Assembly (NCBI GenBank): GCA_900319105.1
Contig: ONND01000005.1
Span: forward strand, 1 to 64,000
DNA: 64,000 nucleotides
Origin: an uncultured Bacteroidales bacterium
GTDB taxonomy: Bacteria; Bacteroidota; Bacteroidia; Bacteroidales; Paludibacteraceae
Reading direction: 5' to 3'
In this document: positions 16,644 to 30,602 of the stretch, one piece after another
Position numbering within the stretch: position 1 is the first letter of the stretch
Layout: each line of letters opens with the position of its first letter
Translations under genes and position numbers: made by a program
The notes under the pieces: model-generated
Database searches by the model: none
What the model was told of the DNA's origin: nothing
The model's input: the letters and a program-made list of their open reading frames with translations, nothing else

Positions 16644-16718
16644 GGGCGTTTAGCTCAGCTGGTTTAGAGCATCTGCCTTACAAGCAGAGGGTCTGCGGTT
16701 CGAATCCGTAAACGCCCA
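16644..16718 (+). tRNA. tRNA-Val (anticodon UAC)
   Basis: A 75-base cloverleaf. The acceptor arms GGGCGTT and AACGCCC pair fully, followed by discriminator A. The D-arm region is AGCTCAGCTGGTTTAGAGC, the anticodon arm is TCTGC-CTTACAA-GCAGA with anticodon TAC, and the T loop TTCGAAT is canonical. The 3' CCA is not encoded. It has its own promoter and terminator. Confidence 0.97.
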
Positions 16719-16918
16719 CAACCCTATAAGGGTGAGAGAACATCGTAAGATGTTCTTTTTTTGTTATGTGTAGCTGAGTCTATGCTCGCATAAGCGAAAG
16801 CTATATATAACAAAAAAGAAAGGCTGACAAGCCTCCCACCATTAATGGGTTGTGCAGAACTCCCCCGAGCAGGGACTGAGGATTGTTAGGAGCAAAGCGA
16901 CGTGAGAATCCGTAAACG
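16702..16918. repeat. 13-bp direct repeat of the tRNA-Val 3' part
   Basis: GAATCCGTAAACG occurs in the tRNA T-arm/acceptor (16702-16714) and again at 16906-16918, 204 bases downstream. Tandem partial copies of a tRNA 3' end are typical traces of integrase attachment sites. No integrase is in the window. The interval 16763-16905 has no ORF or other clear feature. Confidence 0.6.
16737..16762 (+). terminator. Rho-independent terminator of tRNA-Val
   Basis: The 8-bp perfect stem AGAACATC / GATGTTCT with a GTAA loop is followed by a run of seven T. It lies 19 bases after the tRNA. Confidence 0.85.
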
Positions 16919-16957
16919 TCTGTATAAGTACAAAAATGCATAAAAATGGCACTTTTA

Positions 16958-16989
16958 TTTGCGAGTGTCATTTTTTTTGTGTAATTTTG
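16958..16989 (+). promoter_or_regulatory. Promoter of the PIN toxin-antitoxin pair
   Basis: TTTG (16958-16961), 20 bases, then TAATTTTG (16982-16989). It lies inside the longest possible ORF of the antitoxin, which argues that translation starts downstream at 17016. Confidence 0.75.
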
Positions 16990-17015
16990 CAGCGCAAAAT
17001 CAAAACGAGAATACT

Positions 17016-17246
17016 ATGAGTTACATTCAAATGGCACAATTAGACGTGCTCAATCTGGTGAGGGGCATGCAGTCGGAAGAGGATTATGTGGACTTCCGTA
17101 ATATGCTTGCGCGCTATTTTGCGGACAAAGCGCAAAAACAGATAGACGCCCTCTGGGAGAATGGTACGATCAATGAGCAGACCATAGAACAATGGGGTAA
17201 TGAACGAATGAGAACTCCTTATCGTTATGCGATACATCGTTCTTGA
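17016..17246 (+). CDS. Putative antitoxin of a PIN toxin-antitoxin pair
   Basis: A 76-residue protein (MSYIQMAQLDVLNLVRGMQS...) with no recognised DNA-binding fold. Its size, its position directly upstream of a PIN-domain gene and the 20-base overlap with that gene make it the likely antitoxin. The ATG at 17016 is preferred over the upstream start at 16959 because the promoter lies between them. EEDYVDFRNMLARYFADKAQ is predicted helical, as expected for a toxin-wrapping segment. Function is inferred from context. Confidence 0.7.
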   Translation: MSYIQMAQLDVLNLVRGMQSEEDYVDFRNMLARYFADKAQKQIDALWENGTINEQTIEQWGNERMRTPYRYAIHRS

Positions 17247-17631
17247 CACCAACTGCCTGCTACAGGCATTACCGTCCAATAGTCCTTTCCATAAAATATG
17301 GACTGAAGTAGTGGATGGTAGTATTTGTTTGTGCGTCAATACGGATATTTTAGAAGAATACGAAGAGGTATTAGCCAGAAAAACAACTCCTGAGATTGCT
17401 CGAAATATAGTGGACGCAATTGCAAATCTGTCAACTACGATTTTTCAAAATACATATGTCCATTTTGAATTACTTCCGGCGGATTCTGACGATAATAAGT
17501 TTGTTGATTGTGCAGTAGCCTCTGATGCCGAGTATATCGTGACTAATGACAAACATTTCAATCCTTTGAAAGAAATCCCATGGCCAAAGGTTGAGATTAT
17601 CAAGATAGCAGAGTTTATTAAACTTATATAA
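17227..17631 (+). CDS. PIN-domain ribonuclease toxin
   Basis: A 134-residue PIN-domain protein of the 'putative toxin component, PIN family' group (COG1569 type). Acidic metal-binding residues are visible in YIVLDTNCL (Asp7), LEEYEEVL (Glu42-46), DDNKFVDCAVASDAEYIVT and TNDKHF. Such toxins cut RNA, often tRNA or rRNA sites, when the antitoxin is lost. Translation is probably coupled to the antitoxin by the 20-base overlap. The pair lies just inside the accessory region, near the tRNA, as often seen for islands. Confidence 0.85.
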   Translation: MRYIVLDTNCLLQALPSNSPFHKIWTEVVDGSICLCVNTDILEEYEEVLARKTTPEIARNIVDAIANLSTTIFQNTYVHFELLPADSDDNKFVDCAVASDAEYIVTNDKHFNPLKEIPWPKVEIIKIAEFIKLI

Positions 17632-17705
17632 ATCCAGCTTATGACTTAAATCCGAGCCGCTGGCACCGACAGCGTAAAAAAGCGGTGACATAAAGGCGTT
17701 TATTG

Positions 17706-17964
17706 AAAACGTTGTTTGCGACTCATCAGAATCTTCGCAACGTTTTGTAACTAGTCCAAACAGCAACAATGAATGTCCCGTGGATATGTAATCCACTTCC
17801 ACGCCCGAAAGGGGTGTGGTTGGGTGTATATATCGGGCGTGGACTTCGGTTGTTTTTCTACTAGTTACGGGGATTGCGAAGCCCTTGATGAGCGTGAAGA
17901 ACAGACGGACTTCACGCTTTTTGTGTGCGAAATCGTGCCCCACAGCAGCTAAGAACTTCACGCT
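17706..17964 (+). ncRNA. Candidate structured leader RNA with internal terminator
   Basis: This non-coding stretch has nested inverted repeats. CTTCGCAA (17733-17740) pairs with TTGCGAAG (17874-17881). Inside it, GTAACTAGT (17747-17755) pairs with ACTAGTTAC (17860-17868), and inside that TCCACGCCCGA (17798-17808) pairs with TCGGGCGTGGA (17833-17843). GTGGAT/ATCCAC (17780-17796) forms a local hairpin. Competing pairings exist: CAACGTTTT (17738-17746) can pair back with AAAACGTTG (17706-17714), and CCACGCCC can pair with GGGGTGTGG. A terminator-like hairpin follows (17891-17922). The rest of the gap 17632-17993 shows no gene. Confidence 0.55.
17891..17922 (+). terminator. Terminator-like hairpin with a competing downstream copy
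   Basis: AGCGTGAAG and CTTCACGCT (17910-17918) form a perfect 9-bp stem, followed by five T. CTTCACGCT recurs exactly at 17956-17964, so the left arm could pair with the second copy instead. It may end the structured RNA or act as an attenuator before the gene at 17994. Confidence 0.6.
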
Positions 17965-17993
17965 GTGTGTTTATACAGAGCAGATACATACCT

Positions 17994-18863
17994 ATGAATA
18001 TGAAATACAAAATACTACTATTCTTCATGATCTTATTGCCATTCTCTATTTGTGCAGAGAATGCGACTAACGTGCGCGTTCGACAACAAAGAAAGGACAT
18101 CATCGTTAGCTATGATCTTTCCGAGAGTTCGTACGTGCAATTGTTAATGTCTATAAATGGTCAAGATTTTACTCCTTTAAAAGCCGTTAAAGGGGATGTG
18201 GGATGTCGTGTAGCAAGAGGAAAAGATCGCAGAATTACGTGGTATCCTCTACAGGAACAAGAATCCTTTGTCGCAGATAATGTTCGTTTCCGTGTAGTCG
18301 CATTAGATCCTTACCAATTTTATGCGCTCCCAAAACATAAAGGAGGGAAAACAGATATTGAGACTTTCATTTTAGGGGAAATAGCTTATTCATCAGTTCC
18401 TCAATTAAGTTATGGTCTTACTTTCGGACAGACATATAAATATGGATTAGGTTGGTTTGTGGATTTTCGTTCAAATTTTAATTTCTGTTTGGCAACTAAT
18501 GGTCTCGCATGTACATATGGAGGGTATGTAAAAGGAGAGTTGCCTTTTTATTCTGGAAGAAAGCAATCCAGTTCAATGGTGTTTCATACAGGATTAGTTT
18601 TCGATATTCTTGATGCGACCAAGGTGCAAAAGAATCGTTTTAATTCATTTGGCCTTTACCTAGGAATGGGTTATGGATGGAGAAAATTATTATGGGAGAC
18701 AACGGATGGTCAATGGATAGAATATTCTCCTACTTCTCATAAAGGTTTTAGCGCAAACATGGGTCTGCTAGGAAGCATCTATGGACTTACACTTCGGGTC
18801 GGTATTAATACCATTGGATTTAAATATGCTGAGATAGAAGCAGGTTTAGGTTGGACATTCTAA
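17994..18863 (+). CDS. Exported protein with probable outer-membrane barrel
   Basis: A 289-residue protein from the ATG at 17994 (MNMKYKILLFFMILLPFSICA signal peptide). Upstream codons of the open frame run through the structured leader and are unlikely to be translated. Residues about 25-110 resemble a small beta-sandwich (VRVRQQRKDIIVSYDL, ITWYPLQEQESF); the rest is glycine- and aromatic-rich and ends EIEAGLGWTF, whose terminal Phe is typical of outer-membrane beta-barrels. It is first in the collinear run 17994-28541, with gaps of 2-20 bases. No specific family recognised. Confidence 0.75.
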   Translation: MNMKYKILLFFMILLPFSICAENATNVRVRQQRKDIIVSYDLSESSYVQLLMSINGQDFTPLKAVKGDVGCRVARGKDRRITWYPLQEQESFVADNVRFRVVALDPYQFYALPKHKGGKTDIETFILGEIAYSSVPQLSYGLTFGQTYKYGLGWFVDFRSNFNFCLATNGLACTYGGYVKGELPFYSGRKQSSSMVFHTGLVFDILDATKVQKNRFNSFGLYLGMGYGWRKLLWETTDGQWIEYSPTSHKGFSANMGLLGSIYGLTLRVGINTIGFKYAEIEAGLGWTF

Positions 18864-18875
18864 GTAGTTGATATC

Positions 18876-21218
18876 ATGAAAAAGAATCTATTATATATCA
18901 TCCTTTTGGCAATAACAGTCCTTTTGTCAGCTTGTAAAAAAGATGAAAAAGTAAAAATTGCATCACTCTCTTTGGAAAATCTCGAACTCTCAGTTGCATA
19001 CACAACTGCGGAGATTAAAGTCGATGTTTGCTGTAATGCAACTATAAACGAGGTATTATTAGAATATACTGTTGATTCCACTTTTAAGGAATGTAGCGAG
19101 GCTAGAATGACAAAAGTAGAGAAAACGGAACAAAGATATGCAGTTTATCTAGATTCTCTATTGGATGGGGCGAAATATTATTTCCGTTGTAAGGTGTTGA
19201 ATAAAATCAATTCTTGTTTTTCGCAACCGAATACTTTCTCGACACAACAAATAGTAGTCCCTACTATGGGCTCTATCTCTATCACTGATATCTCTTATAC
19301 ATCTGCTACGTGTGTTGGAGAAGTTATCTCCCATGGAGGTGATTCAATTACTGAGCGAGGTATTTGTTTATCTACCCTTGAAAATCCCACTATAGATAGT
19401 TCGAAAGTATCCAGCGGAAAAGGAGTTGGTTCTTTTACATGCAAGATTATAGATTTAACTGCAGGAACCACCTATTACGTGCGAGCATATGCTACAAATA
19501 AGAAAGGAACTGTCTATAGCGAGCAACTAAGTTTTACGACTCCAAATTATGGTATGCCAACTGTCACCACCTCTGCTGCAACAAACATATCTTATACCAC
19601 TGCAACGTGCGGTGGAAATGTAACAGCTGATGGTGACCAAACCGTTACTGCGAGAGGAGTTTGTTATTCTACATCGCAGAATCCAACTATTTCTAATAGT
19701 AAAGTACAAAGCGGTAGTGGTAAAGGCTCATTTACATGTAATCTTACCGGGCTTTCTGCAGGCACTACCTATTACGTTCGTGCCTATGCTACTAATAATC
19801 AAGGCACATCATATGGTCAGCAAATCTCATTTAAGACAAGCACATATGGACTGCCTACAGTCTCCACATCAGTTGCAACAAATATAACTTATACATCAGC
19901 AACTTGTGGAGGAAATGTAACAGCTGATGGTGGACAGACTGTTACTGCACGAGGTATCTGCTACTCGACTACACAAAATCCGACTATATCTAACAGTAAA
20001 GTGCAAAACGGAAGTGGTAAAGGCTCATTTACATGCAATCTTACCGGACTTTCAACTGGTACAACCTATTATGTACGCGCCTATGCTACTAATAGCAAAG
20101 GGACATCGTATGGTCAACAGGTTTCTTTTAAAACAACCGCATATAGTCTACCGACGGTTACTACCTCTTCGGTTTCAAATAGAACAACCACTACAGCAAC
20201 GTGTGGTGGAAATGTAACAGCTGATGGAGGCCAAACCGTTACTGCGAGGGGTATCTGTTATTCCACATCGCAGAATCCTACAATATCTAATAGTAAAGTA
20301 CAAAGTGGAAGCGGAAAAGGAGCATTTACGTGTGCACTAACGAATCTTATAGAAGGCGAAACGTACTATGTGCGCGCCTATGCAACAAACAGTAGAGGAA
20401 CATCGTATGGCTCACAAGTATCATTCACTACAATATCAACAGCATTTTCAACAAGTCCAACGAATAAAGTGCATTTCGCTCCCGGAAATTTACAATATAA
20501 TGCAATGTTGGGTACACACCAATGTGCAGATGGAACGACAAAACAAGGAACATGGCGCTTTGCCGATCATCAATATGACGCACTTGGTTATGCGAATCAA
20601 AATGCATCTTCCACATATAATGGATGGATTGACTTATTCAGTTGGGGGACAAGTGGATATACAAAGCAACCATGGGAGTTAAGTTATTATGATGTTAAAT
20701 CAAACTTAATAGGAAATTATGCAAAAGGCGATTGGGGTGTATATAATGCAATATCTAATGGAGGAAATACTCCTAGTCTATGGCGCACACTTTTGTTTGC
20801 GGAATGGAGATATATAATCTTAACAAGAAACAATGCAAGTAATTTAAAAAGCCGCGCTACTGTAAATTCCATCCATGGGTATATTTTATTACCTGATTTA
20901 TGGGAATTACCGCAAGGTATCTCATTTACTCCATTAACTAATGATTGGACGGCTAATACATATAATAGTTCACAGTGGAGTTTGATGGAAGCAAATGGCG
21001 CAGTTTTTTTGCCTGCATCTGGATATCGAGATCCCATTTCCTTAGAGGTGATATATGATGGTGGAGCGGGATTATACTGGACCGCTACTGCCGGAACCGG
21101 ATATGACCAGGTTGCGTCCGCTATATTTTTTAATTCTAAAAAAACAGATCCATCTATATCTGAATGGAGCAAAACCTATAGTTGCTCAGTTCGTTTAGTT
21201 CAAGATATAAATCAATAA
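18876..21218 (+). CDS. Surface lipoprotein with tandem 99-residue Fn3-like repeats
   Basis: A 780-residue lipoprotein (lipobox ending ITVLLSAC, Cys20). After an N-terminal domain come four repeats of about 99 residues (DNA about 19264-20445), each with GICYSTxxNPTI, GSFTCNLTGL and TYYVRAYATN, resembling fibronectin type III-like modules of Bacteroidota surface proteins. Repeats 2-4 are spaced exactly 297 bp and are much more alike than repeat 1, pointing to recent duplication. The C-terminal domain (KVHFAPGNLQYN, YNGWIDLFSWGTSGY) belongs to a large Bacteroidales/Fibrobacter paralogous surface family. Probably a cell-surface binding protein; ligand unknown. Confidence 0.82.
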   Translation: MKKNLLYIILLAITVLLSACKKDEKVKIASLSLENLELSVAYTTAEIKVDVCCNATINEVLLEYTVDSTFKECSEARMTKVEKTEQRYAVYLDSLLDGAKYYFRCKVLNKINSCFSQPNTFSTQQIVVPTMGSISITDISYTSATCVGEVISHGGDSITERGICLSTLENPTIDSSKVSSGKGVGSFTCKIIDLTAGTTYYVRAYATNKKGTVYSEQLSFTTPNYGMPTVTTSAATNISYTTATCGGNVTADGDQTVTARGVCYSTSQNPTISNSKVQSGSGKGSFTCNLTGLSAGTTYYVRAYATNNQGTSYGQQISFKTSTYGLPTVSTSVATNITYTSATCGGNVTADGGQTVTARGICYSTTQNPTISNSKVQNGSGKGSFTCNLTGLSTGTTYYVRAYATNSKGTSYGQQVSFKTTAYSLPTVTTSSVSNRTTTTATCGGNVTADGGQTVTARGICYSTSQNPTISNSKVQSGSGKGAFTCALTNLIEGETYYVRAYATNSRGTSYGSQVSFTTISTAFSTSPTNKVHFAPGNLQYNAMLGTHQCADGTTKQGTWRFADHQYDALGYANQNASSTYNGWIDLFSWGTSGYTKQPWELSYYDVKSNLIGNYAKGDWGVYNAISNGGNTPSLWRTLLFAEWRYIILTRNNASNLKSRATVNSIHGYILLPDLWELPQGISFTPLTNDWTANTYNSSQWSLMEANGAVFLPASGYRDPISLEVIYDGGAGLYWTATAGTGYDQVASAIFFNSKKTDPSISEWSKTYSCSVRLVQDINQ
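19557..20447 (+). repeat. Three 297-bp tandem repeats in the lipoprotein gene
   Basis: Repeat starts are seen at 19557, 19854 and 20151 (codons for P-T-V-T/S-T-S). The segment GTGGAAATGTAACAGCTGAT is present in each. The period of 297 bp equals 99 codons, so copy number can change without a frameshift. Confidence 0.85.
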
Positions 21219-21235
21219 TCTATATCTAAAACATT

Positions 21236-21874
21236 ATGCCTAAATATTATGAAACTGAAAAGCGAGAAGTATTTGACTCCAAATATATGAAAGTTTGGTT
21301 ATTAAACTCTTCTCAATCAGAAAGCGTAAGGAATCTTATTTCTTCGTCAGTGTTTGTAAGAAGATGCAATATCACTGGTGAAGGAAATTTAACCGTGTAT
21401 CCAAGTCGCTTCTATTCATTAGATGAGATGCAGAAGGAAGTAGAACGGTTATTGGATGCTTTTTATAAAGGAGCTATTTTGTCCAAGGCCACATTACCTC
21501 AATGCGCAGAGACGAAAACTAAAATCTCTCAATATGATACGGTGAAGAAACTTTACGACAAAGCAATAGATGGAATAAACGCCGGAACTGATTATCGGCA
21601 TGCATTGGACGATCTCCGCTTAGCCATAGAAATCTATTTGAAAGAATTATTGCAGAACGATAAATCATTAGAAAACCAAATAGGAGAAATTGGTCCTTTT
21701 CTTGGGGCGCATAATGTTTCGACAGAAATTATAGGTAACATTAAAGAAAGCATAAAAGCTATTACATGCTATTTCAACCAACATGAGAAGCATAATGATA
21801 ATGTTAAGACAAACGAAATCGACTATATTGTTTGTTTGGCGAATAGCGTATTTAGCATCTTTTCTTCAATCTAA
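21236..21874 (+). CDS. Unknown protein with HEPN/abortive-infection-like C-terminus
   Basis: A 212-residue, apparently cytoplasmic protein without signal peptide or membrane segment. The C-terminal half (VKKLYDKAIDGINAGTDYRH, LDDLRLAIEIYLKELL, FNQHEKHND, YIVCLANSVFSIF) has the helical layout of HEPN or 'abortive infection C-terminal' domains, in which an R-X4-6-H-type motif cleaves RNA; only His-rich QHEKHN is visible and no strict R-X4-H is seen. The N-terminal half is not recognised. It lies between secreted proteins and a DUF2971 gene in the collinear accessory run. Function is not established. Confidence 0.6.
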   Translation: MPKYYETEKREVFDSKYMKVWLLNSSQSESVRNLISSSVFVRRCNITGEGNLTVYPSRFYSLDEMQKEVERLLDAFYKGAILSKATLPQCAETKTKISQYDTVKKLYDKAIDGINAGTDYRHALDDLRLAIEIYLKELLQNDKSLENQIGEIGPFLGAHNVSTEIIGNIKESIKAITCYFNQHEKHNDNVKTNEIDYIVCLANSVFSIFSSI

Positions 21875-21894
21875 AACATCAAATAGAAATAATT

Positions 21895-22632
21895 ATGTCA
21901 GTAGAAAGATTTGTGAATACAGAAAAACTTTACCATTACACTAAATACCAAAGTGCACTTATGATTATACTAACTAATAGCATGAGGTTTGGGAAATTAG
22001 TGGATATGAATGATTATATTGAATCTAATAAGATAATAGGTTGCAAAGATGGAGGAAATGGATTAATTGAAAATTCAAATACATTAAATTCAATACAACA
22101 TTATTTGTCTTCTATAGGGCAAATATCTTTGACTAATGGACACAAGAAATGTGGCTTTGATATAGAGCCGATGTGGAGTCATTATGCAGAAAAAGGGAAA
22201 GGTATTTGTTTCGTTTTTGACAGAAGAAAACTTCTAAAAAAAGCAAAGGAGATGCGATGCTGGTGTAGGTTAGTCGCATATAAAAAACATATATCACAAT
22301 GGTATGTCACAGAAATTAATTCAGTTGAAGAAGTAGTGCCATACTTTAGTACACATCGGAAATCAGTATTTTTTGAAAAGTCGAAGGATTGGAAATATGA
22401 GCAAGAATATAGAATTCTATGTGCCGATTCGCGATTTCCGACTCTGCAATTAAACGATTGCATAGTTGGCGTTATTCTACATTGCTCTTCTCTTTCTTCA
22501 ATTGAAATAGAAGATAGAAAAAATATCTTTTCCAAACTCGAAATACCTGTATACGAATATAATGGCAAAATATTTGGAGGAGGAGAAAAAACATTGAAAT
22601 ACGACAATACAACCATATATTCCCTAAAATAA
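21895..22632 (+). CDS. DUF2971 domain protein
   Basis: A 245-residue cytoplasmic protein. LYHYTKYQSALMIILTNSM near the N-terminus, VDMNDYIES, and MWSHYAEKGKGICFVFDRR are the conserved parts of DUF2971 (usual form LYHYT, NDPFE, MWSHYA, GFCIGFD). WKYEQEYRILC is also typical of the family. The family is widespread in accessory regions and has no firmly known biochemical role. It sits 20 bases after the HEPN-like gene and 6 bases before the first caspase gene. Base composition is AT-rich like its neighbours. Confidence 0.82.
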   Translation: MSVERFVNTEKLYHYTKYQSALMIILTNSMRFGKLVDMNDYIESNKIIGCKDGGNGLIENSNTLNSIQHYLSSIGQISLTNGHKKCGFDIEPMWSHYAEKGKGICFVFDRRKLLKKAKEMRCWCRLVAYKKHISQWYVTEINSVEEVVPYFSTHRKSVFFEKSKDWKYEQEYRILCADSRFPTLQLNDCIVGVILHCSSLSSIEIEDRKNIFSKLEIPVYEYNGKIFGGGEKTLKYDNTTIYSLK

Positions 22633-22638
22633 TAGTAT

Positions 22639-24300
22639 ATGAAAATGAAAAGATTTTTTGCTTTGATTGGATGCGTATTATGTACAATCTTAGTTTTCGC
22701 CCAAACAGACACCAGTATCCCTATGTCTTTTCACATTGAAAAAGATGTTGTACCTCCTTTATTAAAGGTGATGCCTCAATCGCAGCAGTTTATGGATCAA
22801 GACCACAATGGAGTCATTGATGCTAATGAAAATTGCGTCATTCGATTTGAAGTAACCAATACTGGTAGAGGCGACGCTTTTGGATGCGTCGCACGAACGA
22901 CTATGAGTGGAGATATAGAAGGTCTAATTGTCAAGGATGTTCCGCTTCCTGTTATCCATCATAACTCAAAACAATGGATTGAAGTGCCTATTATTGCCAA
23001 CGAAACCACAAAAACGGGAGAAATTCAATTTTCCATTTATGTGGACGAGCCGAATGGTTATGGTACCGATCCTATTACCGGAAAAATTGGTACGCATAAA
23101 CTCAAAACTCCATACGTGCAAGTGGCTAGCTATAAAGTATCTGGTGCAAAAGGCGGCATATTGAATCGCCGTGAGATATTCAAACTGCAAGTCATTGTGC
23201 AAAACACAGATCAAGGCGTAGCAGATAATGTGGCGGTAACTCTTCAACTGCCGGACAATGTGAATTGGTTGGGAGGTTCTGATCAATACTTGAATGTCGG
23301 TTCTATGAAACCCAATGAGACAAAGAAATTGGAATATGAACTAATGGCAAATCAAAAGGCAGATGAACACATCGATATCAATGTTGACGTCAAGGAGCAA
23401 ACCGGCAAATATGCCCAAAATGCGGACATCCCTTTGCAATTTGGTCAATATGTAGGAAGTTCTATCGCTATGAATATTGAGCGTAATGATGCAGAAGTGG
23501 AAATCAGAAAAGCTACGTTAATCTCCGATGTTGATGAGAATATCCCTGTATCAGCTGTTAAGAACCCCAACACTTTTGTGCTTATCATCGCCAACGAGCA
23601 TTATTCGCAGGTAGCATCAGTTCCTTTTGCACTCAATGACGGAAATATCTTCCGGGAGTATTGTATTAAGACATTGGGTATCGGCGAGAAGCATATCAAA
23701 TATCTCTCTGACGCTACAGGCAATCAAATAAAAGCCGGAGTTAATTGGCTTGCTAATCTGACAGAAGCATTCGACGAGCCACAGATCATCGTTTATTATG
23801 CGGGACATGGAATCCCGGATGAATCTAATAAATCCTCTTATTTACTGCCGGTGGATGGTATTATCAGCGATATGTCCACGTGCTACAAACTCGATGACCT
23901 CTACACCACGCTCGGTAACATGCCTGCTTCGCAAATTACCGTCTTTATGGACGCTTGTTTCTCCGGCTCTAAACGCGAGCAAGGAATGTTGGCATCAGCG
24001 CGTGGCGTAGCCCTTAAAGCCAAATCCGGTGTGCCCCTAGGAAACATGGTCGTTTTCTCGGCGGCACAAGGTGATGAAACGGCTTATCCGAACCGTGAGC
24101 AGCAGCACGGTCTCTTTACCTATTATCTGCTCAAGAAACTCCAAGAGACACAAGGAGACATAGCCCTCAAGGATCTTGGCGACTACATCACAAAGCAAGT
24201 CTCCCAACAATCTCTCTTGATCAACGACAAGAAGCAAACACCCTGCGTCATCCCCTCCGCCTCCCTCGGAACAGAATGGCAATCCTGGAAACTGAAATAA
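22639..24300 (+). CDS. Exported caspase-family protease 1 (CARDB-like N-terminus)
   Basis: A 553-residue protein: signal peptide (RFFALIGCVLCTILVFAQ), an acidic loop like a calcium-binding EF-hand/dockerin (DQDHNGVIDANE), CARDB-like Ig domains (about 60-270), and a C-terminal caspase/peptidase C14 domain (about 310-553). Both catalytic residues are present: His390 in YYAGHG and Cys440 in MDACFSG. Such proteases cut after Arg/Lys or Asp. The signal peptide suggests it acts outside the cytoplasm. Its last 67 bases, including the stop, are identical to the end of the 26209 gene. ATG at 22645 is an alternative start. Confidence 0.88.
   Translation: MKMKRFFALIGCVLCTILVFAQTDTSIPMSFHIEKDVVPPLLKVMPQSQQFMDQDHNGVIDANENCVIRFEVTNTGRGDAFGCVARTTMSGDIEGLIVKDVPLPVIHHNSKQWIEVPIIANETTKTGEIQFSIYVDEPNGYGTDPITGKIGTHKLKTPYVQVASYKVSGAKGGILNRREIFKLQVIVQNTDQGVADNVAVTLQLPDNVNWLGGSDQYLNVGSMKPNETKKLEYELMANQKADEHIDINVDVKEQTGKYAQNADIPLQFGQYVGSSIAMNIERNDAEVEIRKATLISDVDENIPVSAVKNPNTFVLIIANEHYSQVASVPFALNDGNIFREYCIKTLGIGEKHIKYLSDATGNQIKAGVNWLANLTEAFDEPQIIVYYAGHGIPDESNKSSYLLPVDGIISDMSTCYKLDDLYTTLGNMPASQITVFMDACFSGSKREQGMLASARGVALKAKSGVPLGNMVVFSAAQGDETAYPNREQQHGLFTYYLLKKLQETQGDIALKDLGDYITKQVSQQSLLINDKKQTPCVIPSASLGTEWQSWKLK
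24234..24300 (+). repeat. 67-bp perfect direct repeat, copy 1
   Basis: The 67 bases from GCAAACACCCTGCG to ACTGAAATAA, the coding 3' end of caspase 1, are identical to 27594-27660. The copies are 3360 bp apart and bracket the pseudo-caspase and third caspase genes. Confidence 0.97.
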
Positions 24301-24315
24301 TAAAATGGTATACCT

Positions 24316-26196
24316 ATGAAAAATCAATTTATCTCACGAATCGTGTTTTTACTCACATTATTAATGTGTGAAATTCTTATTTCTTATGCAGAAGAAAGAC
24401 CATCTGTTACTGCCAGGCTAGAGCAGAAGTACGAATCTGTTACATTTGTAAATGAGAATGGAGTAGAATATTATAAATTACGTAACACTCGTCCCGGAAC
24501 CTACGACTCCTATTATGGAATAGCAGATGTTAGTGGCAAGATAATTATTCCATGTCAATATAACTATGTATCTCTACAGACATATGTAGATAGTAATTTT
24601 AAGGGCTATGCTTCTGAAACATATTTTTGGATATTGGAAACAAGCAATGAGATGTATGGAGTTGCTGACAAAAAAGGAAAAATTATTATTCCATGTAAAT
24701 ATGGATATCCTTTTCTATCAGACTATGGTAGTATTGGAGGGAAAATGAATGGCGAGTTATATGGTTTTGCTTTTATTATGGGAGGTAAAGCTGCATTTAC
24801 AGAAAAAGGAAAAGAACTCATACCTGAAAAAAGAGGGTATACCAATATTTTTCCCTGTATTAATCCATATGACGAAATAAAATTTTTTAGTGTTGCAAAA
24901 GGTGAAAAAAAAGGACTCTGCGATGCTAATGGAACAGAATTATTACCTCCTATTTATAATAGGGTATTTAATATGAGTGATTTCAGTCCATATGAACTCC
25001 GTTATTTTATGATAGAAACAGACAAAGGTATAGGATTATACGATTATAAAAAAAGAAGAATAGCACTCTCTCCTAAATATTATATGGTTCGGTCGTGGGG
25101 TAATATCTATTCTTTCCAAGTGGAAAAAAACGGAGTTTATAAGGTTTATTATGAAGACAAATTTTTAACTACGGCCGAGAAATTACAATCGAACACTATT
25201 TTTGATAATGCAAATAAAGAAGATAAATATTGCATTTTCAAAAAGGGCAAAAAACAGGGGGTGATAAATGAAGTTACGGGAAATCTATTGCCTTTGGAAG
25301 TTGATTCAATTATGCAGATTAAAGATGGAACAGTATCTGTATTAGACAATGAATTAGTTACAATTTATAGTCTCACGGCATTGGAAAAAGGAGAATTGGA
25401 ACGTATAGCCAGTATGTCTAATAAGGATGCAGCAAAAGCTATAGTGAGTGATGCAGATACGAACATTCCGAAAGTTAAGAAACAGGATGAGAATACCTTT
25501 GCCGTCATTATTGCAAATGAGAACTACAACGATTTTATAGTACCCGCTGCTAATAATGATGGTAAGATTTTCAAAGAGTATTGTATACACGCATTGGGCA
25601 TTCCTTTAGAAAACATACTCTATTACGAAGATGCTACTGTCAATAATATTTATTCTGCCGTTAAAAGGTTAAAAGATTTGGCTGAAGTATATGACGAGGG
25701 ATGCAAAGTGATATTCTATTATAGTGGTCAAGGTGTCACTGATGAACGCACGAAAGAGATGTATTTGTTACCTACGGATGGCACGCTAAAATCTATATCT
25801 TCCACTTGTTATAGTATCAGCAAACTGTATGGAGAAATTGGCAAACTAACGAATATAGAACAAGCATTATTCTTGATAGATGCTCCTTTTAATGGGATGA
25901 CTAAAGAGAATAAACCGCTTGTACAGGCGCGTGGTGTAGCCATTAAGAGCGCCCCGAATAAAGTAACGGGAAATGCCATTGCGATAGAAGCCGCTACAGA
26001 AGGGCAAACAGCACATGTCTATCCGTTGCAAAATCACGGATTGTTTACATACTATCTTCTCAAAGCTATGCAATCCAATACAGACAACAAAACTCTATTG
26101 GACATGATGCCGGATGTGATTAAAAATGTGAAAGACAAATCGACAAGAGACTTAAAAGTGCCGCAAATAGTCCAAATTAAGAGTGCTAAACCCTAA
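24316..26196 (+). CDS. Exported WG-repeat pseudo-caspase, both catalytic residues lost
   Basis: A 626-residue protein with a signal peptide (FLLTLLMCEILISYA) and an N-terminal WG-repeat-like region (YGIADVSGKIIIPCQY, YGVADKKGKIIIPCKY, KKGLCDANGTELLPPIY, residues about 60-350). The caspase fold (about 380-626) keeps the scaffold (TFAVIIANENYNDF, VIFYYSG, YLLPTDG, HGLFTYYLLKAM), but the catalytic His is Gln472 (YYSGQG) and the Cys is Pro524 (IDAPFNG). It should be inactive, perhaps a regulator or scaffold for the neighbouring active paralogues. Gene very AT-rich. It is intact, without frameshift. Confidence 0.85.
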   Translation: MKNQFISRIVFLLTLLMCEILISYAEERPSVTARLEQKYESVTFVNENGVEYYKLRNTRPGTYDSYYGIADVSGKIIIPCQYNYVSLQTYVDSNFKGYASETYFWILETSNEMYGVADKKGKIIIPCKYGYPFLSDYGSIGGKMNGELYGFAFIMGGKAAFTEKGKELIPEKRGYTNIFPCINPYDEIKFFSVAKGEKKGLCDANGTELLPPIYNRVFNMSDFSPYELRYFMIETDKGIGLYDYKKRRIALSPKYYMVRSWGNIYSFQVEKNGVYKVYYEDKFLTTAEKLQSNTIFDNANKEDKYCIFKKGKKQGVINEVTGNLLPLEVDSIMQIKDGTVSVLDNELVTIYSLTALEKGELERIASMSNKDAAKAIVSDADTNIPKVKKQDENTFAVIIANENYNDFIVPAANNDGKIFKEYCIHALGIPLENILYYEDATVNNIYSAVKRLKDLAEVYDEGCKVIFYYSGQGVTDERTKEMYLLPTDGTLKSISSTCYSISKLYGEIGKLTNIEQALFLIDAPFNGMTKENKPLVQARGVAIKSAPNKVTGNAIAIEAATEGQTAHVYPLQNHGLFTYYLLKAMQSNTDNKTLLDMMPDVIKNVKDKSTRDLKVPQIVQIKSAKP

Positions 26197-26208
26197 TATC
26201 AAACTACA

Positions 26209-27660
26209 ATGAAACGTCTAATTTTATATTTTTTGGTCTTCTTTGCTACTGGCTTAGGATGTTTTGCGAAAGATACGGATGTAGTGCGAAGACAAATCGA
26301 ACAAAAATACGACAAATATGAGTTTCGATTTCCCCGCATAGGAGATTCGATAAAATATGTGGTTGTTCATAAGAATGGGAAACGAGGTGTTGTATATTGG
26401 TATACAGGAGAGGAGATAGTCCCTGTTATATACAAATATGTGGATAGATATACCTATGACGAGCATTTTGCTCAATGTGATGATAAATTTTTTCATCTTT
26501 CATCCCGGCAAATGTATGACGAATGTGATAAATATATAGGAGATGACATATGTTCTGTCAAACGCAACAATAAATGGGGAATAATAGATTCTGTAGGCGT
26601 AGTAGTAGTGCCTATTATCTATGAAGAAAAACCATTTAAAGCATCGAAAGACAATATCATCTGTCTCAAGAAAAATGGCAAGTACGGTTATGTGGATAGC
26701 AAAACATTCAAACCAATAACTGAATTCATCTATGAGCGTGCTGGGGATTTCAATCATGATGTTGCTCAAGTGATGGTTAATGGGAAATGGGAGATGCTGC
26801 AAAATCCAAAGAAGATTGTATTACAGCAAAGATCAAAACCCAGAGGTAAGAAAAAAGCCGTCAGTTCATTCCCTGCACCTAATTCGGAAGTTGATACCAA
26901 CATTCCGGAAAACAAACAAAAAGCAGAATACACATTTGCATATATTATCGCCAATGAAAATTACGAAATAGCAAAAGTTCCATATGCTCTCAATGATGGA
27001 TGGGTTTTTGAAAAATATTGCCGTCAGACATTGGGTATACCTGATAAAAATATCCATCTTTATGAAGATGCTACTGCTGGAAATATTATAGCTTGCATAG
27101 AAAATCTAAAGGAGACTGCTCGCGCGTATGAAGGAGATGCAAGTATAATTTTCTATTATGCCGGTCATGCTTTTCCTGACGAAGAAGAACACTCTGCGTA
27201 CTTGTTACCTATAGATGGAAACAGTCAGAATATTGCAACTGCATATAGTCTAAAAAAATTATACAAAGAATTTAATTCCGTACCTGTCAAACAATTGATA
27301 TGTTTCATTGATGCCTGCTTCAGTGGAACAACACGTACGGATGAAATGTTAATCGCTGGTCGTGGTGTAGCTGTAAAAGTAAAAGATGATGTTCCGCAAG
27401 GAAATGCGGTGGTTTTTACATCTGCAACTGGAGCGGAAACGGCTCATTCGTATGAAGAAAAAGGGCATGGAATGTACACGTATTATTTATTGCAGAAACT
27501 CCAAGAGACTCAAGGAGATGTAACTTTGGGTGAATTAACGAATTACGTACGCAAAATGGTGCGCCGCAAATCAGTAGTGGTCAATGAGAAAATGCAAACA
27601 CCCTGCGTCATCCCCTCCGCCTCCCTCGGAACAGAATGGCAATCCTGGAAACTGAAATAA
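26209..27660 (+). CDS. Exported WG-repeat caspase-family protease 2
   Basis: A 483-residue protein with a signal peptide (LILYFLVFFATGLGCFA), WG-like repeats (RGVVYWYTGEEIVPVIY, KWGIIDSVGVVVVPIIYEE, KYGYVDSKTFKPITEFIY; about 60-200) and a C14 caspase domain (about 235-483). Catalytic His320 (YYAGHA, where Ala replaces the usual Gly) and Cys370 (IDACFSG) are present. Its AT-rich sequence changes abruptly into the GC-rich 67-bp tail shared with the 22639 gene. WG repeats link it to the pseudo-caspase upstream, while the tail links it to caspase 1. It is followed after 2 bases by the DUF4384 gene. Confidence 0.87.
   Translation: MKRLILYFLVFFATGLGCFAKDTDVVRRQIEQKYDKYEFRFPRIGDSIKYVVVHKNGKRGVVYWYTGEEIVPVIYKYVDRYTYDEHFAQCDDKFFHLSSRQMYDECDKYIGDDICSVKRNNKWGIIDSVGVVVVPIIYEEKPFKASKDNIICLKKNGKYGYVDSKTFKPITEFIYERAGDFNHDVAQVMVNGKWEMLQNPKKIVLQQRSKPRGKKKAVSSFPAPNSEVDTNIPENKQKAEYTFAYIIANENYEIAKVPYALNDGWVFEKYCRQTLGIPDKNIHLYEDATAGNIIACIENLKETARAYEGDASIIFYYAGHAFPDEEEHSAYLLPIDGNSQNIATAYSLKKLYKEFNSVPVKQLICFIDACFSGTTRTDEMLIAGRGVAVKVKDDVPQGNAVVFTSATGAETAHSYEEKGHGMYTYYLLQKLQETQGDVTLGELTNYVRKMVRRKSVVVNEKMQTPCVIPSASLGTEWQSWKLK
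27594..27660 (+). repeat. 67-bp perfect direct repeat, copy 2
   Basis: Identical to 24234-24300. It encodes the C-terminal 21 residues and stop of caspase 2 (QTPCVIPSASLG, then EWQSWKLK). Synonymous sites are also identical, so recent duplication or gene conversion is needed. Confidence 0.97.
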
Positions 27661-27662
27661 CC

Positions 27663-28541
27663 ATGAAACGAATCCTTCTTTTTGCCCTCATTTTGGCATT
27701 ATGCCTGCCGCTCTTTGCCGCCAATAACATCGTGCGCGTTGCGGCGACTTACGAATATGTCTCCGATAACTCCCGTGAGACGCCGGAACAAGCCGAACGT
27801 ACAGCTATCGAACGAGCCAAACAGAAAGCCCTCGAAGAGAAATTCGGTGTCGATGTGACGGCGGTAACAAACACGCTCATTACAAACCGCAGCGGATCAG
27901 ACGCACAATCTCAAACAAATGTCTTTTCCCTCGGTGGCACGGCCGTGCGAGGAGAATGGATCGAGACAACCAAGAAGGAAGTGCTCGAAATGGCGTTCGT
28001 ACAAGGGTTCTGGAAAATAAGAGTGCATATAGAAGGTAAAGCACGCAACACAACCTCTGAAAAAGCAGATATCCGCTATGCTTTCATCAAGGATGTACAG
28101 GACCTCGAATCGCCCGTTACGTTTCGTGACGGAAGTGATCTCTTTCTGCGTTTTTCTTCGCCCGTCGCCGGCTATCTCTGCGTGTATCTCATAGACGAAA
28201 CAAAGAACGCTTATTGCCTTCTGCCTTACATGAGCCAACAGACAGGTAGTCAGCCTGTTGAGGCAAATAGAGACTATATTTTCTTTTCCTCCAAATACGA
28301 CAAAGGAGCGCAGGAATATACGTTGAATTGCGCTAATTCATCGGAGCAAAATGCCCTCTATCTCATCTTCTCGCCCAACGACTTTACCAAGGCTGCAGAC
28401 CACCCAGCCGGCAAGAATTTCCGTGACGAGCAATTACCCCGCGAATTATCTTACGAAGCCTTCCTCAAATGGCTATCCCGTAATCAGGCCAAAGACCCGC
28501 AAATGCTGGTCTGCACTTCCATCATCTCTATTAAAAGATAG
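27663..28541 (+). CDS. Exported DUF4384 domain protein
   Basis: A 292-residue protein with a signal peptide (MKRILLFALILALCLPLFAA). Residues about 20-130 resemble LPP20/FlgT-like domains (RTAIERAKQKALEEKFG); residues about 150-250 carry DUF4384 hallmarks (FRDGSDLFLRFSSPVAGYLC, YCLLPY). In other bacteria DUF4384 is often fused or adjacent to caspase domains, so it is a plausible partner or substrate of the upstream proteases. The start at 27663 avoids an in-frame extension that would overlap the caspase gene. GC content is higher than in the genes before it. It is the last gene of the run. Confidence 0.8.
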   Translation: MKRILLFALILALCLPLFAANNIVRVAATYEYVSDNSRETPEQAERTAIERAKQKALEEKFGVDVTAVTNTLITNRSGSDAQSQTNVFSLGGTAVRGEWIETTKKEVLEMAFVQGFWKIRVHIEGKARNTTSEKADIRYAFIKDVQDLESPVTFRDGSDLFLRFSSPVAGYLCVYLIDETKNAYCLLPYMSQQTGSQPVEANRDYIFFSSKYDKGAQEYTLNCANSSEQNALYLIFSPNDFTKAADHPAGKNFRDEQLPRELSYEAFLKWLSRNQAKDPQMLVCTSIISIKR

Positions 28542-28919
28542 AAGTCCTCAAATTAACCTCGTTTCAACATCGTTTCAAATGTCCACAAATCAGCATATCT
28601 CGCGCCTCTCTTGCGCGTAGGTTAAGGAGAAAGTACATATCCTCATGAGAGTTTTAACTTCTAATCTCGTTCGCATCCTGTACGTCATAATACGGTGTAA
28701 ATATGGTTTTTCATAGGATGTTACTATGTCTATTATCTGCCCAAACCGTGAACTCCTTATGATAAAACCGTAAGATTACCCAATGATTACCGTAGGATTA
28801 CCGAAGGATAAGCCCCTTATTTTGTCCTTTTTACGCTCTTTCTGTATATATACTATGTATATATACACTTTTTGCTGTAATTTTCCTTCAAAAATAGAAA
28901 ATGTTTTTAATGTTTATTG
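28542..28919. other. AT-rich intergenic region with a 10-bp palindrome
   Basis: No gene is seen. TGTATATATA (28843-28852) and TATATATACA (28858-28867) form a perfect inverted repeat with a CTATG loop, a possible operator or hairpin. The sequence CTGTAATTTTCC shortly after (from about 28874) resembles a weakened -7 box. GATTACC occurs three times between about 28773 and 28801. Confidence 0.5.
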
Positions 28920-29041
28920 CTTTTGAAGGCTTTAACTCGTCAGAGTGCGGCGTTAGATGGTAAAAGCCATCTGGGAGTTTACTCACAAGTGGGTTTTAGC
29001 AACTAAGGACGCATAGAGCGCAGCTCAAAAGCCTTCAAAAG
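28920..29041. ncRNA. 122-nt multibranched element with 14-bp terminal inverted repeats
   Basis: CTTTTGAAGGCTTT (28920-28933) and its exact reverse complement (29028-29041) close the element. Inside are ACTC-GTCA-GAGT, AGATGG/CCATCT (28955-28972), ACTCA-CAAG-TGGGT (from 28981), a longer arm pairing GTGCG with CGCAT plus TTAG with CTAA, and GAGC-GCA-GCTC. Together these fold into a four-way-type junction. It could be a small structured RNA or a miniature mobile element; strand is unknown. Confidence 0.6.
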
Positions 29042-29111
29042 TGTTGATCTATGTTTATGTTCTAAAAAACACTAACCACTAATCCCCTAACAAAAAAAAT
29101 CTACGATTTTA

Positions 29112-29143
29112 TTTGCATATGTCAAAAAAAAGCAGTAATTTTG
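29112..29143 (+). promoter_or_regulatory. cstA promoter
   Basis: TTTG (29112-29115), 20 bases, then TAATTTTG (29136-29143) in the context AAAAGCAGTAATTTTGCAC. It is 43 bases upstream of the cstA ATG. Confidence 0.8.
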
Positions 29144-29186
29144 CACGTTGAAACAATTAAACGATTATACATCGTAAATAGTTTTT

Positions 29187-30602
29187 ATGATTACATTTAT
29201 TATTGCGCTCATTGTACTGGTAGTGGGGTTCTTTACCTACGGCGTACTGGTTGAGAAGATTTTTGGAGTTGAACCGGAGCGTAAGACTCCGGCGCTGACA
29301 AAGACAGACGGGGTGGATTATGTACCGATGGAACCTTGGCGTATCTTCCTCGTTCAGTTTCTGAACATTGCGGGACTGGGACCGATCTTCGGTGCCATTA
29401 TGGGTATTTTCTATGGTCCGGCGGCTTTCCTATGGATTGTATTCGGAACGATTTTTGCCGGCGGCGTGCATGACTACATGAGCGGCATGTTGTCCATCCG
29501 CAAAGGCGGAGCCTCACTGCCGGATATCGTAGGTGAAGAATTGGGTCATGGTATCCAAGTCTTTATACGCATTCTGAGTCTGGTTCTTCTGATTCTGCTG
29601 ACCACAACCTTTCTGAGCGGTCCGGCTACATTGCTGCAGGGCTTGGCGCCTTTAGCCACGTATGGAATAGAGCGTTTCGGAGTAGTCTATCAGATACCCA
29701 TTGTATGGGTGCTTATTATCTTCGGATATTATGCACTGGCAACAGTACTTCCGGTAGACAAGTTGATCGGGCGGTTCTACCCTTTCTTCGGCGGTATTCT
29801 TCTGTTTATGGGTGTCGGAATCATGATTGTCATGTTAGGCTGGCATAGCGCAGATATGCCGGAGGTGTTTGACGGGCTGCATAACCGGCATATGAACCAT
29901 TTGCCGCTTTTCCCGATGATGTTTGTCAGCATCGCCTGCGGTGCGATATCAGGTTTTCACGGCACACAGAGTCCTATTATGGCGCGCTGCATGACTAACG
30001 AACGGCAAGGACGCTGGATCTTCTACGGTGCGATGGTGGCCGAAGGTATCCTGGCGCTTATTTGGGCAGCAGCGGCAGGTTCGTTCTTCGCCGATCCGGA
30101 GAAGGGTTTATACGGCATTGACGGTCTGCAGGCGTTTGCAGCAGCGCACCAAGGGGAAAACATCGCCGCGCTGGTGGTTGACAAAGTGAGCCGAAGTTGG
30201 TTAGGTGTGATCGGAGGTATATTGGCTATCATCGGCGTTATAGCAGCGCCTATTACCAGCGGCGACACGGCTTTGCGTTCGGCGCGTTTGATCGTAGCCG
30301 ATTACCTCAAACAGGACCAACGGCCTATCCCAAAACGTTTGGCGATTGCCCTGCCGCTCTTCCTCTGCGTATTCGGAATGGTCTTCGTTGATTTCAATAT
30401 CGTTTGGCGTTATTTCGCATGGACGAACCAGACGCTCGCCTGCTTTACGCTTTGGGCGGGGACCGTATGGCTCTATAAATACCGCAGAGAAAAATACCGG
30501 TACGGATGGTTGATAACGGCTATTCCGGCGGCGTTTATGACCGTCGTTTGTATCAGTTACATCCTCATCGCGCCGGAAGGCTTCCACCTGCATCTATGGT
30601 AA
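29187..30602 (+). CDS. cstA: CstA-family peptide/pyruvate transporter
   Basis: A 471-residue membrane protein with a dozen or more hydrophobic segments. [34 protein letters not shown] and SGFHGTQSP are the conserved CstA parts. Members import pyruvate or peptides during carbon limitation. It is shorter than enterobacterial CstA (about 700) but normal for the Bacteroidales form. It has its own promoter, and its stop overlaps the start of engB (ATGGTAA at 30596-30602), implying coupled translation. Confidence 0.93.

Follow-up and report, generated by a model that had tools for sequence, protein, structure and literature searches.

Pseudo-orthocaspases, the bacterial caspase homologues in which at least one residue of the catalytic His-Cys dyad is replaced, have already been described and are rare in Bacteroidetes. 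According to the available sections of PMC6426788 (2019), such forms account for 8.6% of the caspase homologues of bacteria as a whole and for 10 of the 1078 from Bacteroidetes; 90% of the pseudo forms belong to Alphaproteobacteria and Cyanobacteria, Tyr/Ser is their commonest pair, and they are tied to photosynthesis. An alphaproteobacterial clade with Gln/Cys has a DUF4384 domain on the same chain (same sections), and DUF4384 is also placed on mutated cyanobacterial orthocaspases in the available part of PMC7475262. In the accessible portion of PMC3501461 (2012), 20 predicted operons contain two or at most three caspase homologues, with Bacteroidetes among the four groups concerned, and some members of these multi-metacaspase operons have an N-terminal hydrophobic helix. 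The subject of this report is a set of four genes, A to D, within a 64,000-nucleotide stretch (the window) from an uncultured Bacteroidales bacterium of the Paludibacteraceae (assembly GCA_900319105.1, contig ONND01000005.1, positions 1 to 64,000). A WG-repeat protein with a dead C14 caspase domain, B, is encoded there between two caspases with complete dyads, A and C, and a DUF4384-type gene, D, follows. This four-gene set was not found elsewhere.

Although the locus shares features with each of the described systems, it has its own distinguishing ones. B is like the pseudo-orthocaspases of PMC6426788 in having a p20 fold, apparently kept, with dyad residues replaced; it and the relatives described below differ from those in the available sections in carrying Gln/Pro, Leu/Pro or Leu/Ala on WG-repeat proteins, and Leu/Ser, Leu/Asn or Leu/Thr in one genus of another family. 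For the multi-metacaspase operons, the accessible portion of PMC3501461 contains no account of a dead member flanked by live ones, nor of WG repeats. An inactive relative acting with active ones is the logic of cFLIP(L) with caspase-8 and of trypanosome TbMC4 (both via the available sections of PMC6426788), although those systems are eukaryotic and based on experiment, while here such action can be suggested at most. The EACC1-associated bacterial caspases (NCBIfam NF047832) match A, B and C significantly (E-values 3.4e-17, 6.3e-10 and 2e-16), but all three lie far under the cut-off of that family, with 62.6, 38.9 and 60.1 of 140 bits. A literature search, judged from its listings, gave no account of WG-repeat dead caspases and no paper joining orthocaspases with Bacteroidales. 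An earlier reading of the window, made from the sequence only, held that no described system has this arrangement; this was too strong for the parts, given the available text of PMC6426788 and PMC3501461. With moderate confidence, B is regarded here as a working pseudo-orthocaspase, related to the live WG-caspase C and serving in binding or regulation rather than catalysis, within a recombined A-D insertion.

The four genes are arranged as follows.

22639..24300, + strand: A, CARDB domain and C14 caspase domain with the full dyad His390/Cys440, 553 amino acids (open reading frame and Pfam)
24316..26196, + strand: B, WG-repeat protein with a dead C14 domain, Gln472/Pro524, 626 amino acids (open reading frame and Pfam)
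26209..27660, + strand: C, WG repeats and C14 caspase domain, His320/Cys370, 483 amino acids (open reading frame and Pfam)
27663..28541, + strand: D, DUF4384-type partner, 292 amino acids (open reading frame, Pfam and family alignment)

All four reading frames are intact, with 15 bases between A and B, 12 between B and C, and the start of D 2 bases past the stop of C. Pfam Peptidase_C14 (PF00656) matches A, B and C with E-values of 1.8e-20, 8.5e-15 and 5.2e-19 (74.1, 55.5 and 69.3 bits, all above the gathering cut-off of 21.4), and no other C14 domains were found in the source genome, a 30-contig draft of 2.26 Mb that is 91% complete. Also above the Pfam cut-off are WG repeats on B and C, in two stretches on C, and CARDB on A. 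The dyad codons are CAT/TGT in A, CAA/CCT in B and CAT/TGC in C. By the His-Cys dyad, A and C would class as active orthocaspases and B would not; a p20-type domain with at least one dyad residue replaced, the definition of a pseudo-orthocaspase, describes B and the Leu/Pro and Leu/Ala proteins introduced below. The sequence-only reading had named the three adjacent C14-fold genes with these residues and the WG repeats on two of them, and the reading frames, residues and Pfam matches bear it out. Its description of the proteins as exported stands in so far as A, B, C and D each have an N-terminal hydrophobic or signal segment, judged by eye, which would probably place their site of action outside the cytoplasm. 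Orthocaspases cleave at Arg/Lys (available sections of PMC6426788), and A and C, by family knowledge, would be peptidases of this type. C has HA in place of the HG of the family and departs from two of the 26 near-invariant columns, those conserved at ≥98% in 189 other domains; it is presumed from its sequence to be a live peptidase.

In B, the two replaced residues lead us to infer that peptidase activity has been lost. Its C14 domain, modelled alone, has a caspase fold (predicted local distance difference test, pLDDT, 71; predicted template modelling score, pTM, 0.79), for which the best match in the PDB is the MALT1 paracaspase (Foldseek E-value 6.1e-11), with caspases 7 and 9 lower. As the sequence-only reading had it, fold motifs and frame are kept: 626 codons are open and the domain models as a caspase. 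The model of full-length B (pLDDT 42.6) was too poor for use and was discarded. Profiles compared with solved structures gave weak MALT1 matches for the caspases, none for a three-row profile and one weak match for D. Of the 26 near-invariant columns B keeps 22 and breaks four, namely the catalytic His, the Pro three residues later, the catalytic Cys and the tail Gln.

Within the genus, a profile of the A, B and C domains has matches in 61 of 178 genomes, the source genome included. The 108 distinct proteins, with those of the window, comprise 102 with His/Cys (A and C among them), five partial ones and B, the only one with Gln/Pro; where both columns can be read, His/Cys is thus present in 102 of 103 domains. 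The same holds for 95 of 95 domains from the first order-level and other loci, and the adjacent caspase genes at L107, L112, L153, L171/L225 (one genome), L196 and L238 are live wherever both residues can be read. The view of B as a singleton, one among 198 domains with both columns, arose because this first set favoured domains with high scores, which are therefore live; it was overturned by lower-scoring matches, which included dead domains.

Dead WG-repeat caspases occur in two other families. The genome G232 encodes, on contig C26, a 613-amino-acid WG-repeat protein with Leu/Pro for His/Cys that is 27% identical to B over 647 columns, nearly the full length. The two proteins have in common a KPL stretch, Thr in place of the Pro that follows the His motif, and Pro at the Cys position. 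Upstream of the G232 gene, and overlapping it by 4 bases, is a D homologue (L284 2890-3744), and no caspase neighbour is present in the 11 kb read. On contig C42 the same genome has a live WG-caspase, the best match of B in the order-wide search (37% identity over residues 62-621); the 12 kb read around it contain neither a second caspase nor a homologue of D. The window and G232 each hold a dead and a live WG-caspase. The second family is represented by G880, whose 756-amino-acid WG protein has Leu/Ala and is 29% identical to B over 564 columns. The sequence-only reading had proposed a regulated system of dead and live caspases; dead WG-caspases in two further families, one overlapping a D homologue, agree with a non-catalytic role of the middle protein, but a conserved four-gene machine is not supported, and no other locus read has the order caspase, pseudo-caspase, caspase, DUF4384. 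That reading had also named, as evidence against itself, live homologues of its middle gene with the other genes absent, and the C42 protein, with His/Cys and neither caspase nor D within the 12 kb read, is largely of this kind.

A different dead group characterizes the genus of G232, where 17 of 18 genomes match the profile and all 17 carry a 622-677-amino-acid protein whose dyad positions hold Leu and one of Ser, Asn and Thr (L319-L334, L336). WG repeats were not found in this group by Pfam, run on two proteins, or by a local repeat profile, and its N-terminal architecture, where scanned, differs from that of the WG proteins. All 362 loci and the window together give 239 distinct cores with both positions readable, after exclusion of 10 of 377 rows without a position, from a sample that is not random: 220 are His/Cys and 19 are not (10 Leu/Ser, four Leu/Asn, two Leu/Thr, and one each of Gln/Pro, which is B, Leu/Pro and Leu/Ala). 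In the order-level searches the dyads come from loci fetched among the matches listed, and C served as query only in the family of G232 (18 genomes). Among the loci read from a class-wide search (287 genomes) and from two further families (20 and 38 genomes), no dead gene was seen besides B and that of G880. Outside Alphaproteobacteria and Cyanobacteria, these dead caspases of probably exported proteins, one of them present in 17 of the 18 genomes of one genus, provide test cases for the question whether bacterial dead caspases control live ones.

Outside the G232-genus group, the three dead domains found are all on WG proteins, compared with seven of 220 live domains. The local WG profile, built from five segments of the G880 protein, itself dead, finds at least two WG stretches in 10 of 239 proteins, three of them dead (B and the proteins of G232 and G880). 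The association between WG repeats and dead sites is 3/10 versus 0/213 when the G232-genus group is left out (Fisher 6.6e-5) and 3/10 versus 16/229 when it is counted (Fisher 0.036), with the caveat that the G232 and G880 dead proteins are sisters in one tree. C falls below the threshold of the local profile despite its two Pfam WG stretches. Pfam detects WG on one of 85 other genus caspases (of 94 complete ones, the nine longest were left unscanned).

The four-gene order has a mosaic structure, which is best seen by comparison with the congener G167 (L070), where an A-type caspase is followed directly by D and then cstA. Two short segments of the window are central to the comparison.

24234..24300, + strand: 3' tail of A, 67 nucleotides, identical to the tail of C
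27594..27660, + strand: 3' tail of C, 67 nucleotides, identical to the tails of A and of the A-type gene of G167

D and the preceding caspase tail are 94.9% identical in DNA between the window and G167, while the flanking genes reach 76.7% (cstA) and 79.2% (a mutS-like gene, named by eye); this difference indicates a recent exchange of D. Compared in 60-base blocks, A and the A gene of G167 show about 40-65% identity for most of the first 1,250 columns and 87-98% over the last ~420. C and the same G167 gene are 48-68% identical in the 300 bases compared ahead of the last 67, which are identical, and the high identity continues past the tail of C into D. A and C share their final 67 bases and diverge at once past the stop. 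On these comparisons B-C reads as a mosaic insertion between A and D, a product of recombination. The simplest history would be that a tRNA-Val-linked accessory insertion carried an orthocaspase-DUF4384 pair (A-D), of a type recurrent in the genus, and that recombination placed the two WG-repeat caspase genes B and C between its members, C acquiring the 3' tail of A. Third-position GC content, low in B (0.29) and C (0.31) and higher in A (0.43) and D (0.53; cstA, 0.58), agrees with an A-D pair and incoming B and C. The tRNA-Val site is also a case of caspase genes swapped upstream of a fixed DUF4384-type partner.

The repeat that marks the mosaic could also have misled the assembly, the A-B and C-D joins being misjoined at the 67-nucleotide repeat and the order A-B-C-D being partly an artefact. 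The genome is a draft in 30 contigs, the exact repeat occurs at both junctions, and in G167 the same tail leads straight into D. However, the spacing of A, B and C is alike, all three share one low-GC stretch, and the repeat is shorter than ordinary sequencing reads, which makes a misjoin very improbable.

For D, the 2-base spacing after C given by the sequence-only reading is correct, but D scores 22.8 of the 27 bits required by PF14326 (DUF4384), under the gathering cut-off, though 22 of the 30 members of its family alignment match DUF4384 at E≤0.01. In the genus set, 67 of the 108 caspase genes have a D-family gene on the same strand within the fetched stretch (16 immediately downstream, C included, 15 further downstream and 36 elsewhere on the strand), 36 have none and five lie at contig ends. 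Duplicate copies were kept in these and the order-level counts, and the genus locus L179 was counted with the order set. D is the usual caspase partner in the genus and less so outside it, and a caspase followed directly by D is a commoner unit than the four-gene order. G167 has a second caspase cluster (L070 12016-17076), in which a caspase and a D homologue are accompanied by two genes named by eye, one for a protein with a formylglycine-enzyme-like domain and one HipA-like.

In the preferred reading, the active site of B would have been lost while its fold, N-terminal segment and reading frame were retained. Through its WG region and dead caspase face, B may then bind the same partner or substrate as C (or A or D), and may regulate, scaffold or shield the bound partner outside the cytoplasm; it would most likely act as a decoy, a regulator or a binding partner. 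This reading builds on features that can be read directly from the sequences, namely the dyad loss, the open frame, the mosaic and the dead WG-caspases of two other families.

Should B instead be a relic, inactive after transfer and drifting to a pseudogene, the arrangement would be meaningless. Among 192 domains B ranks last in mean identity, and its end branch is the second longest; it occurs once in the genus, the insertion is a recent mosaic, and the QTP tail region of B is degraded. Loss of the dyad, however, needs at least three substitutions in the six bases of the two catalytic codons, and the neutral joint probability that three or more of these bases change while all 626 codons stay free of stops does not exceed 7.5e-5, whatever the divergence (1.5e-5 when indels are set at 5% of substitutions). 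This calculation is fair rather than overwhelming evidence against decay, because it was the dead site that singled B out from about 200 domains. The changes hit the catalytic site, with 22 of the 26 near-invariant columns kept, and the dead WG-caspases of two other families also speak against a relic. A double residue loss with an intact frame is improbable under neutrality, so B does not look like the decaying pseudogene that the sequence-only reading had named as its other possible undoing; plain decay appears unlikely.

Trees by mixture models were built without the active-site loops, first with 68 rows and then with 61, in another selection that included G880. The 68-row tree pairs B with the dead G232 protein (91/42) and C with the live one (99/86) and joins both pairs (93/87), which would mean one old split into live and dead WG-caspases. 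In the 61-row tree the dead proteins of G232 and G880 stand together (99/92), near relatives of C. A cluster of dead domains in FastTree trees (0.985; 0.764 without active-site loops) was set aside: its branches are long, and the mixture-model trees place the G232-genus group apart and move B.

Several observations weigh against the preferred reading. The position of B shifts with the sample, the 61-row tree placing it beside a live protein (87/83), and the pair of C with the live G232 protein breaks up there on weak branches. None of four groupings put to the approximately unbiased (AU) test is rejected: one origin for the three WG-dead domains (p 0.318), these three united with the G232-genus dead group (p 0.25), and two others (0.385, 0.254), so that trees and AU tests do not separate one origin of the dead domains from several. 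B has no close relative, its maximum domain identity in the genus being 45%, and in the order sample of 393 only two G232 proteins, among the matches listed, align with most of B; the dead and live ones are on separate contigs. The low mean identity of B makes relaxed constraint possible, and the comparison set has one genome per species, below the level at which selection on B within its species would show. The WG association is post hoc and biased, the dead genes having been found with B, C or B-containing profiles as bait. In the order set, no more than 25 of 98 caspase genes have a D homologue nearby (11 immediately adjacent and 14 elsewhere; 68 have none and five are at contig ends).

A broader reading is that the order keeps a lineage of WG dead caspases derived from live WG-caspases as dedicated extracytoplasmic partners (inhibitor, scaffold or substrate trap), with a logic like that of cFLIP and caspase-8, and that one of them has here been recombined between two live genes and a DUF4384 partner; this remains a tentative proposal. 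Comparable doubt attaches to B as a stand-alone ligand- or surface-binding protein, its dead domain merely a structural module unrelated to A or C. The dead WG-caspase of G232 has a D homologue and no caspase neighbour, the G232-genus group with its other N-terminal architecture indicates that dead caspase domains serve several architectures, and the available sections of PMC6426788 deem regulation of live orthocaspases by coexisting prokaryotic pseudo-orthocaspases unlikely. B, however, lies only 15 and 12 bases from two full-dyad caspases, and G232 also keeps a live WG-caspase.

The set lies in an accessory insertion with the following limits.

16644..16719, + strand: tRNA-Val(tac), left edge of the accessory insertion (ARAGORN)
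16720..29186, no strand: low-GC insertion of 12,467 bp between tRNA-Val and cstA
29187..30602, + strand: cstA, right edge of the insertion

The GC content of the insertion is 0.386, compared with 0.473 and 0.506 in its flanks. A cstA search of the 178 genus genomes, the source included, matched 154, and the stretch upstream of cstA was fetched for 20 of the 25 best relatives (G189, G099, G148, G075 and G122 were skipped). Ten of these (L251, L252, L261, L263 and L265-L270) have a compact site, in which no more than about 1 kb separates cstA from the phosphatase gene that in the window stands ahead of the tRNA, and in nine of the ten a tRNA was detected 104-404 bp from cstA. L258 and L260 have about 10 kb of different DNA there, so 10 of the 12 relatives with both edges visible are almost empty. 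The remaining eight carry little information: in L253, L254, L257 and L259 both the phosphatase gene and the tRNA are missing from the 15 kb, and L255, L256, L262 and L264 are short contigs. None of the 20 stretches contains a match to A, B, C or D at E≤1e-8. With the cargo of L258 and L260, the tRNA-Val/cstA site looks like an insertion hotspot. A simple scan of the right border gave no second copy of the tRNA end, and no integrase was seen among the listed island reading frames, nine of which were scanned with Pfam. Phage cargo was rejected, no phage record matching B and no relative being confirmed in viral contigs, as was plasmid cargo, since just two plasmid records match B, with about 30% identity over a third of it.

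Other genes of the insertion lie to the left of A. Near its left end (17227-17631) is a PIN-domain putative toxin gene (TIGR00305, above cut-off), and the frame ahead of it could, by eye, be an antitoxin. Directly upstream of A, at 21236-22632, two genes match the PADLOC phage-defence candidates PDC-S32 (5.6e-28) and PDC-S31 (DUF2971, 1.1e-18); homologues of these were not found in G167 between the lipoprotein-like gene and the caspase. The region 17925-21218 encodes a beta-barrel-like protein (by eye, without a Pfam match) and a lipoprotein-like protein with Fn3 repeats, and homologues of both are also present upstream of the G167 caspase.

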